In this document: in pieces, positions 19,818 through 23,075 of the stretch
Layout: each line of letters opens with the position of its first letter
Position numbering within the stretch: the stretch's first letter is position 1
Assembly (NCBI GenBank): GCA_026395515.1
Contig: JAPLYN010000005.1
Location: 299,521 to 363,520, forward strand
From: Candidatus Peregrinibacteria bacterium
Lineage (GTDB): Bacteria > Patescibacteriota > Gracilibacteria > UBA1369 > LOWO2-01-FULL-3
DNA: 64,000 bases
Reading direction: 5' to 3'
Program-made: the position numbers and the translations under genes
The notes under the pieces: model-generated
Seen by the model: the letters and a program-made list of their open reading frames with translations, nothing else
Told to the model about the DNA's origin: nothing
The model's database searches: none

Positions 19818-22800
19818 ATGAAAAAACATCTCTCCTGGAAACTGCTGACTATCCTTATGGTAACATTGGTACTTGGCTTCTTTGATTTGCCAAGCAGCAT
19901 TCAGCAAAAAATCGTTCCATTCACTCCTCAATCTATTCTTAAGGCTAAAGTAAACCTTGGTCTTGATCTACAAGGAGGTTCTCAATTGGATTACAAAGTA
20001 GATCTTCGCGACGTTCCAGAGAAAGATCGCAAAAGCATCGTAGAGGGTGTTCAGGAAGTAATTACAAAACGTGTAAATGGTTTAGGAGTAGAAGAACCAA
20101 ATATTTACAACTCTACTATTAGTGACGAAGCTCATATCATCGTAGAATTGGCAAACAACGCTACTATCGAACAAGCCGACGTAGAAAAATACATTGGTAA
20201 AGATAAACTTCTAGCAGATATTACTGACGATGAAAAAAAAGAAGTAAGTATTGAAAAAGCTAAAGAAGCTGTAGGTAAAACTATCCAGCTTGAATTCAAA
20301 GAACAGAAAACTCAACTTGATCCTCAAGAAAAAGATAAGATTAAAGCAAACGCTCAAACAGCTCAAGACAAAATCAATAAAGGTGCAGATTTTTCAGTTG
20401 TAGCTCAAGAAGAATCTCAATCAGCTGCAGATAAAATCAAATATGTAAAACCTGACTACGCTTTCGCCACAGATCTTCCAGGTTATTTGAAAGATACTCT
20501 TAGCAAAATGAAAGTAGGAGATGTTACTAAGAATCTCGTAGAATCTAGCGGAACTTTTGCTTTAGATTCAACAGGCCAAGCAGTACAGGACACAAGCTTA
20601 AACATCATCAAACTAGTAGACTCTAAAGAAGAAGTTAAAGACCAGAAACAAGTAGAAGTAAGCAGAATTCTTATCGCATTCAAAGGCGCTGAAAAAGCTA
20701 ACGCAACAGTAACAAGAAACGAAGATGAAGCTTACAAACTTGCTAAGGAAGTAAAAGACAAATTAAACGCTGGAGAAAAATTCGACGACCTTGCTAAAAA
20801 ATATTCTGACGATTCAGACACAGCAGCTAACGGAGGAAAATTAGACAATCCTATTACAGGAAATGGTACTCAACCATACGATTTTGAAAAAACTGCTCTT
20901 GGCCTCGCAAAAGATGGAGACATCAGCGAAATAGTAAAAACTCAAAACGGATACAACATTATCAGAGCCGACTCAGTTCAGAGCAATGTTAAACAACAGA
21001 AATATAAATATGAAATGTTGAGCTATTCAACAAAACCAGATGAATGGAAAGATACTGGTTTGAATGGTAAACATTTCGTTCATGCAGACGTACAGGTAGA
21101 TTCTTTCTTCCAACCATACGTAAACATTCAATTCGACGCAGAAGGTGCAAAGATGTTTGAAGACCTTACAGCAAAAAATGTTGGTAAACCAATTGCCATC
21201 TTCGTAGGAGGAGAGAAGATTTCTAGCCCAAGAGTAAATGAAAAGATTTCAGGCGGAAAAGCTCAAATCACTGGAAACTTCAGCAATGAAGAATCTAAGA
21301 ACCTCGCAAGAGATTTGAACACAGGTGCTATCCCTGCTCCTATCGTTCTTACAGGTGAATACACTCTTGGAGCAAGCCTAGGTCATGAAGCTCTAAACCA
21401 AAGCTTACTAGCAGGTTTCATTGGTATCTTACTCGTAGTTATCTTCATGATTGTTATGTATCGCCTACCAGGTGTTGTTGCCAGCGTTGCATTAGTACTT
21501 TATGGAACAATCTTACTATTCTTATTTAAGGCTCACTTAAGCTTAGCTCTATCACTATTAATAGCTCTAGTTATTTTCGGAGCTATCGTTTGGAAAATCA
21601 TCAACACTAAAGAACCAGGTTGGGAAAAATTAATCTCATTTGTTCTTAGCTGTTTTGGATTCTTCTTCATTACATTCTTACTTAAGAACGGAGTTGTTAT
21701 GACTCTTGCTGGTATCGCCGGTGTGGTGATGTCATTCGGTATCGCTGTAGATGCAAACGTTCTTATTTTTGAAAGATTGAAAGAAGAGCTTAACGAAGGT
21801 AAAACTTTCGCTGCATCTGTAGACGCAGCCTTCCACAGAGCTTGGACTGCTATCCGCGATTCAAACTTCTCTACTCTATTCACATGTGCAATCTTGTTCT
21901 ACTTTGGTAGCTCAATCATCCGTGGTTTTGCTTTCAACTTAGCAGCAGGTATTTTGGTATCTTTGTTCACAGCTATCGCCGTAACAAAGACAATTCTTAG
22001 CAGCTTTATCGGCAAGAAAATTGCTGAAAATCTAAAACTATTCGGAATCACTGAAAAGAAAACAACTTACAATTTTGGTTTCATTAAGAGCTCAAAGATT
22101 TGGTTAGCAATTTCTGGAACATTAGTAGGTATTTCACTTTTAGGTTTCATTGGTTTCGGTCTCAATCTTGGAATTGATTTCCAAGGAGGAAGCTTGATGC
22201 AATTTAAATTCACAGAAGCAACAACTAAGGACAAGATTGTTAGCGCAATTAAAGATGCTAGCAACTCAGTAAATAACGCTCCTCAAGCAACTCCAGAAGC
22301 TGCACCAGCTACACCTGTAGCACCATCAAAAACTACAGACAAAGGATTACAAACTGCTGAAGACACAAAATTAAACCTATCAACAATCAACGTTCTTGAA
22401 TCAGGCAAAGATAGCTTTATCATCAAGACAAACTACATTACTTCCCCAAATCACGATAAACTAATAGCAGCATTACAGGATAAATTACCAAAATTCACTG
22501 AATCACGCTTCACAAGTATTGGTCCAGTAGTTGGTCAGACTTTATTCAATAAAGCTATTCTTGCTATCATCTTCGCCGTAGTTCTTATCGTTCTTTACCT
22601 CTCATTTGCGTTCAGAAAGGTTCCAAAGTCAGTTAACCCTTGGAGATTCGGTACTTGTGCGATCATCGCTATGATCCACGATATTGCAATCACTAGTGGT
22701 ATATTCGTTTTCCTTGGTAAATTTATGGGAGTTGAAATCGATGCCCTATTCATCACTGCGATGCTTACAGTATTCGGTTACTCTGTAAATGACACAATCG

Positions 22801-23075
22801 TAGTTTACGACAGAATCAGAGAGAAACTCTTACACGAATCAAATGAATCATTCGAAGTTACTGCAAACAAAGCTTTGAACGAAACATTCGTACGTTCTAT
22901 CAACACTTCTATGACTGCTGTATTGGCACTACTAGCTGTATTGATCTTCGGAAATAGCTCAATTTTCTTCTTCGTACTAGCTCTTACAATCGGTATCATC
23001 GTTGGTACTTACTCATCAATTTTCGTAGCGACTCCACTATTAGTATTCTGGAACAAGAAAGTTAAAAGAGATTAA
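19818..23075 (+). CDS. secDF: Fused SecD-SecF translocase subunit with inserted parvulin-type (PpiC) domain
   Basis: SecDF uses the proton gradient to pull proteins out of SecYEG. This 1085-aa protein has an N-terminal helix and SecD motif GLDLQGG (48-54). A very long outer region separates these from the SecD membrane half (about 528-735, with VDANVLIFERLKEE near 644). The SecF half begins about 757 (GIDFQGG 785-791, later VNDTIVVYDRIRE). Inserted in the first outer domain, residues about 278-386 match a parvulin peptidyl-prolyl isomerase: SRILIAF, FDDLAKKYSDDSDTAANGGKL, DISEIVKTQNGYNIIRAD. Residues about 160-268 look like a second, decayed copy. The SecD membrane part also holds about 50 extra residues with two more hydrophobic stretches (about 572-622). 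A terminator follows. Confidence 0.94.
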   Translation: MKKHLSWKLLTILMVTLVLGFFDLPSSIQQKIVPFTPQSILKAKVNLGLDLQGGSQLDYKVDLRDVPEKDRKSIVEGVQEVITKRVNGLGVEEPNIYNSTISDEAHIIVELANNATIEQADVEKYIGKDKLLADITDDEKKEVSIEKAKEAVGKTIQLEFKEQKTQLDPQEKDKIKANAQTAQDKINKGADFSVVAQEESQSAADKIKYVKPDYAFATDLPGYLKDTLSKMKVGDVTKNLVESSGTFALDSTGQAVQDTSLNIIKLVDSKEEVKDQKQVEVSRILIAFKGAEKANATVTRNEDEAYKLAKEVKDKLNAGEKFDDLAKKYSDDSDTAANGGKLDNPITGNGTQPYDFEKTALGLAKDGDISEIVKTQNGYNIIRADSVQSNVKQQKYKYEMLSYSTKPDEWKDTGLNGKHFVHADVQVDSFFQPYVNIQFDAEGAKMFEDLTAKNVGKPIAIFVGGEKISSPRVNEKISGGKAQITGNFSNEESKNLARDLNTGAIPAPIVLTGEYTLGASLGHEALNQSLLAGFIGILLVVIFMIVMYRLPGVVASVALVLYGTILLFLFKAHLSLALSLLIALVIFGAIVWKIINTKEPGWEKLISFVLSCFGFFFITFLLKNGVVMTLAGIAGVVMSFGIAVDANVLIFERLKEELNEGKTFAASVDAAFHRAWTAIRDSNFSTLFTCAILFYFGSSIIRGFAFNLAAGILVSLFTAIAVTKTILSSFIGKKIAENLKLFGITEKKTTYNFGFIKSSKIWLAISGTLVGISLLGFIGFGLNLGIDFQGGSLMQFKFTEATTKDKIVSAIKDASNSVNNAPQATPEAAPATPVAPSKTTDKGLQTAEDTKLNLSTINVLESGKDSFIIKTNYITSPNHDKLIAALQDKLPKFTESRFTSIGPVVGQTLFNKAILAIIFAVVLIVLYLSFAFRKVPKSVNPWRFGTCAIIAMIHDIAITSGIFVFLGKFMGVEIDALFITAMLTVFGYSVNDTIVVYDRIREKLLHESNESFEVTANKALNETFVRSINTSMTAVLALLAVLIFGNSSIFFFVLALTIGIIVGTYSSIFVATPLLVFWNKKVKRD

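Follow-up and report, generated by a model that had tools for sequence, protein, structure and literature searches.

The only SecD/SecF protein encoded in this genome (1.30 Mb, 99.9% complete) is a fused, otherwise intact SecDF in whose outer domain two parvulin-type domains are inserted in tandem, between the base and the head of P1. An insertion of one or two such domains recurs across the bacterial class to which the genome belongs. MAGs with the label Candidatus Peregrinibacteria or Candidatus Peribacteria are the named genomes nearest to it. The gene lies in a 64,000-nucleotide stretch of DNA, the window, whose coordinates are used here (Table 1).

Tandem parvulin domains between the P1 base and head of SecDF

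The SecDF that surrounds the insert is intact. It contains the P1 base and head, the GG motifs and the membrane domains of the family, the latter matched by Pfam SecD_SecF_C twice, once in each half of the 1085-aa protein. We take D645, D992 and R1026, the equivalents of Thermus D340, D637 and R671, to be the proton-path residues, and alignment to 3aqp shows that this conserved Asp/Asp/Arg set is retained. The SecDFs of Thermus thermophilus and Deinococcus radiodurans (3AQP, 5YHF, 5XAN) share the fusion of SecD with SecF, the P1 base and head, the membrane part and the proton-path residues with the window protein; however, they lack the parvulin insert, and the 34 residues 114-147 of Thermus SecDF stand against 270 (residues 133-402) here. 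Measured against Bacillota SecDF/SecD, the interval at residues 146-412 comprises 267 aa, versus 50-54 aa in four of five proteins and 25 in the fifth. The preliminary description, made from the sequence alone, thus correctly recognised an enlarged P1, but its estimate of roughly 230 additional residues comes down to about 215 between base and head.

Two stretches of the protein match the Rotamase profile PF00639 (whole-protein E=5.6e-25, the better stretch at residues 286-385), and Rotamase_3 matches residues 262-385 (E=6e-22). In a genome-wide search with PF00639, whose curated cut-off is 21.7 bits, both copies score above this value, domain 2 with 74.4 bits (E=1.2e-20) and domain 1 with 27 bits (E=8.2e-6). 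Both parvulin copies are real, including the degenerate domain 1, for which several lines of evidence agree: besides its score above the cut-off, PF00639 matches this stretch on its own in 11 of 26 relatives, a profile built from these 26 finds SurA parvulin domain 1 as its top PDB match (E=0.004), and hhalign relates domain 1 to domain 2 with a probability of 95% (E=5.6e-8).

Because a fold search with the full-length model returned only SecDF and RND-type transporters, the insert was also folded alone (mean pLDDT 84, pTM 0.60). Its predicted fold matches PrsA, SurA and Pin1 in the PDB (Foldseek), with a TM score by target of 0.86 for a PrsA fragment and a SurA alignment of about 250 columns that spans both domains. 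In the full-length model (overall pTM 0.40), the insert itself is confident and long continuous strands (residues 255-286 and 378-404) join the two parvulin domains, while the relative orientation of base, insert and head is not fixed. The absence of a parvulin HMM match and a different predicted fold had been named beforehand as outcomes that would speak against the preliminary description; neither occurred, and its placement of a parvulin domain and a second, degenerate copy at 20295-20975 (residues 160-386) proved accurate.

Table 1 Positions of the features discussed in the text (window coordinates, except for the cyclophilin gene, which is given by contig)
Feature	Residues	Position	Strand	Basis or remark
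secDF gene (fused SecD-SecF, 1085 aa)		19818..23075	+	complete ORF
SecD GLDLQGG motif	47-54	19956..19979	+	
P1 base, N-terminal part	76-127	20043..20198	+	Pfam SecD_1st
Near-invariant strand GKTIQLEFKE, base-head junction	153-162	20274..20303	+	insert starts right after
Parvulin domain 1, degenerate	~165-270	20310..20627	+	Pfam match 20319-20561
Parvulin domain 2	~276-390	20643..20987	+	Pfam match 20670-20972
Arg in place of first parvulin His (SHIL in relatives)	R283	20664..20666	+	
Asp in YSDDS, position of catalytic Asp/Cys, kept	D332	20811..20813	+	
Asn in place of second parvulin His (FGYHII in relatives, NGYNII here)	N380	20955..20957	+	
P1 head subdomain	412-507	21051..21338	+	Pfam SecDF_P1_head
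Equivalent of Thermus SecDF D340	D645	21750..21752	+	alignment to 3aqp
SecF membrane domain	885-1080	22470..23057	+	Pfam SecD_SecF_C
Equivalent of Thermus SecDF D637	D992	22791..22793	+	alignment to 3aqp
Equivalent of Thermus SecDF R671	R1026	22893..22895	+	alignment to 3aqp
Sole cyclophilin of the window genome (L117), ISGC lipoprotein-type signal		G000:C4:173920-174378	minus	

Loss of the histidine pair in the window genus

Nearly all relatives retain the histidine pair of domain 2 (SHIL and FGYHII in the alignment). In the window protein, the dual-histidine motif of parvulin prolyl isomerases is absent (R283, N380), and all four genomes of the window genus lack both histidines, with Arg or Asn at the first position and Asn at the second; the Phe preceding the Gly is likewise changed to Asn in all four. 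The catalytic Asp/Cys position is occupied by D332; the S-D-D motif keeps its Asp, and the pocket keeps its Leu (GGKL) and Phe (DFEKTAL). One further member of the same order (L062) also lacks both histidines of domain 2, and in two proteins from a second set of families (L089, L090; see below), Asn replaces the second one. Copies of domain 2 within the genus share 81-89% identity, with dN of about 0.08-0.11 and dS of about 1 or saturated; the domain appears to be under purifying selection, dS saturation making dN/dS only a rough measure.

Judged by these residues, normal isomerase activity of the window protein is unlikely, and with both histidines lost, domain 2 would most likely serve to bind or hold chains and have hardly any isomerase activity, if any. 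The proposal that a folding catalyst sits at the export motor is supported for the family, in which the histidine pair is kept, but not for the window protein, with its substituted pair and its degenerate domain 1.

Distribution of the insertion among Patescibacteria

Queried with the full protein, 55 of the 60 nearest genomes give a match, and in all alignable matches among these 55 the insert lies at the same site, right after GKTIQLEFKE. Across the class, 229 of 241 genomes match a profile built from domain 2 and the head, and one continuous match across parvulin and head is present in at least 110 of the 241 (a strict count and hence a lower bound). In the class members that we retrieved, SecD is often encoded by a separate, shorter gene in which one parvulin can be recognised. 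In three class proteins (L105, L107, L113), the insert is long and its PF00639-type parvulin falls below the cut-off or is undetected by Pfam. Outside the class but within the same phylum, the continuous match occurs in at least 21 sampled genomes from about 11 families, with one or two parvulins, so that the survey of SecD homologues suggested in the preliminary description finds the same insertion across the order, the class and these further families. The other patescibacterial SecDs among the matches listed are mostly of about 400-520 aa, match the head only and lack the insert. This systematic survey covered Patescibacteria; a scan of genome contigs returned close relatives and insert-free Bacillota SecDFs only.

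In a SecD tree, the class and the order form one group (support 92), while the second set of families is mixed with insert-free SecDs on weak branches, which leaves one gain versus several gains undecided. The SecD of one class member (L104, G089:C17:8000-12500) groups with this second set on a long branch (support 88), possibly reflecting transfer of the fused gene or a long-branch artefact. Two genomes of the same order that are 97-100% complete (G042, G052) contain neither a SecDF match nor a parvulin, through either an assembly gap or true loss. Within the window genus, the window SecDF is about 90% identical to two relatives (L007, L008) in the base but only about 52% in SecF, while its identity to a third (L006) stays at about 80% throughout; the gradient suggests recombination inside the gene.

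Other parvulins and prolyl isomerases in these genomes

Outside SecDF, no PF00639 match was found in the window genome, and nearly all matches in the 60 relatives belong to SecDF frames, either complete or truncated at the end of a contig; in one relative (G037), a frame of 295 aa resembles a fragment of SecDF. The exceptions are three SecD-like proteins of 479-508 aa without a membrane part and one tandem parvulin of 323 aa. The SecDF inserts are thus nearly the only parvulins in the genomes of this order. Among Patescibacteria outside the class, free parvulin proteins (about 290-420 aa) are present in many genomes and missing from many others.

The three SecD-like proteins consist of base, parvulins and head only (L045, G059:C7:8811-10208; L046, G049:C22:30473-31582; L047, G036:C3:143360-144643), and a 545 aa ORF (L108) is likewise SecD-like without a membrane part. 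Both parvulin histidines are kept in all of them, and lipobox-like motifs are present in L046 (LSGC) and L047 (LTGC) and absent from L045. By their sequences, these proteins resemble free-standing paralogues of the outer domain of SecD and perhaps stand in for PrsA. The free tandem parvulin (L048, G053:C1:67624-68304) is 38% identical to the SecDF insert and has a signal-like N-terminal segment but no SecD part.

Besides the SecDF insert, the window genome encodes one trigger-factor-like FKBP and one cyclophilin, which is probably extracytoplasmic because of its lipoprotein-type signal (Table 1). Extracytoplasmic prolyl isomerisation in the window genus may instead fall to this single protein. 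A newly gained cyclophilin as the cause of the histidine loss was considered and rejected, since most relatives also have one.

Discussion

The reading that we favour, and consider likely, is a SecDF motor with its own extracytoplasmic tandem-parvulin module that binds the emerging chain, acting as an isomerase in most relatives and mainly as a holding device in the window genus. The module begins right after the strand that connects base and head of P1. Its expected position is at the exit of the translocon, next to the head, which is the element of SecDF that engages emerging chains. This proximity is based on where P1 of SecD is known to lie; contact between insert and chain is something that we infer, since the low pTM of the full-length model leaves the orientation unfixed. 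The module would bind the unfolded chain as it emerges, while the head moves with the proton cycle, and would thereby hinder backsliding and aggregation; in relatives with an intact histidine pair, prolyl bonds would be isomerised as well. A wider version, in which the parvulin module moves with the head, so that proton-driven pulling is coupled to gripping of the chain and to prolyl isomerisation, the fusion replacing a separate SurA, PrsA or PpiD, is one that we offer tentatively and regard as possible, if rather doubtful. P1 of SecDF adopts several conformations, and PMF-dependent transport is reported to depend critically on it (PMC9508474).

Known extracytoplasmic parvulins offer close parallels. 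In E. coli, the holotranslocon is bound by SurA, whose parvulin domains P1 and P2 dock on the P1 head of SecDF in AlphaFold models (PMC9987972); the fusion would keep a SurA-like pair of parvulins permanently at the presumed docking place of SurA. As in the window insert, the parvulin domains of SurA are in tandem, the first weaker and the second better; however, SurA is free in the periplasm and has a distinct N-terminal chaperone domain, which the window SecDF lacks. PrsA, the nearest catalytic-type parvulin to domain 2 by sequence, also acts outside the membrane but is a lipoprotein with its own foldase domain and is not fused to SecDF. For PpiD, a parvulin-type chaperone anchored in the membrane, no detectable PPIase activity is reported (PMC2956729), and it associates with SecYEG (PMC9643414). 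A parvulin-type domain at the Sec translocon that is reported to be inactive (PpiD with YfgM; PMC2956729, PMC9643414) is the likeness that we have in mind for domain 2 in the window genus, which would most likely bind and hold; unlike the insert, PpiD has its own membrane anchor and a SurA-like N region and is a partner of SecYEG, not part of SecDF. Overall, the insert is probably a SurA/PpiD-like module for holding and isomerisation attached to the head of SecD; it would be catalytic in most relatives, while in the window protein its activity would be weak or limited to binding. The holding role calls for caution, because the chaperone activity of SurA and PpiD resides in their N-terminal region and not in the parvulin domains (PMC2956729), and no SurA_N-type or SurA/PrsA N-terminal chaperone region is matched by Pfam in the window SecDF at E<=0.1.

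Could the window insert nevertheless be an active prolyl isomerase, with a dispensable histidine pair and with Asp332 and the hydrophobic pocket sufficing? The retained Asp332, Leu and Phe would allow it, and published Pin1 studies describe the histidine pair as structural and H59N as sustaining yeast viability (PMC6983177, PMC2678132), with about 15% of activity left in the H59L/H157L double mutant (PMC6983177), so that loss of both histidines is no proof of lost activity. However, both histidines and the Phe before the Gly were lost together throughout the genus, in contrast to the other relatives, almost all of which retain the histidine pair, and Arg at the first position is absent from the tolerated Pin1 changes described there. 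We therefore regard an active enzyme in the window protein as unlikely.

Still less probable, in our judgement, is a mainly structural insert that never touches the substrate and serves either as a stiff spacer or brace extending the P1 arm or as a docking site for another envelope protein. The degeneracy of domain 1, the continuous strands that link the domains in the model and the three class inserts so diverged that Pfam barely detects a parvulin are all in keeping with a spacer, but a mere spacer would not need the histidine pair that most of the class has kept, and the parvulin domains of SurA are modelled on the same P1 head (PMC9987972). Chance, a fused-gene annotation and an assembly artefact are excluded, the last two having practically no probability left, by a single open frame with the same junction in dozens of genera.

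SecD and parvulins are both known families, and their combination within SecD as a class-wide trait was not found in the open-licence literature searched, and neither was any report of a SecD-parvulin fusion. The fusion bears on the open question of how SecDF passes the emerging chain to folding helpers. In E. coli, the placement of the SurA parvulin domains on the SecD P1 head comes from low-resolution data and models only, and a class-wide fusion in a single chain is natural evidence that the SecDF head and parvulins work at the same place. It also provides a construct of fixed geometry for structure determination and crosslinking, and the genus in which both histidines are replaced could show, as a natural experiment, whether selection acts on binding or on catalysis.
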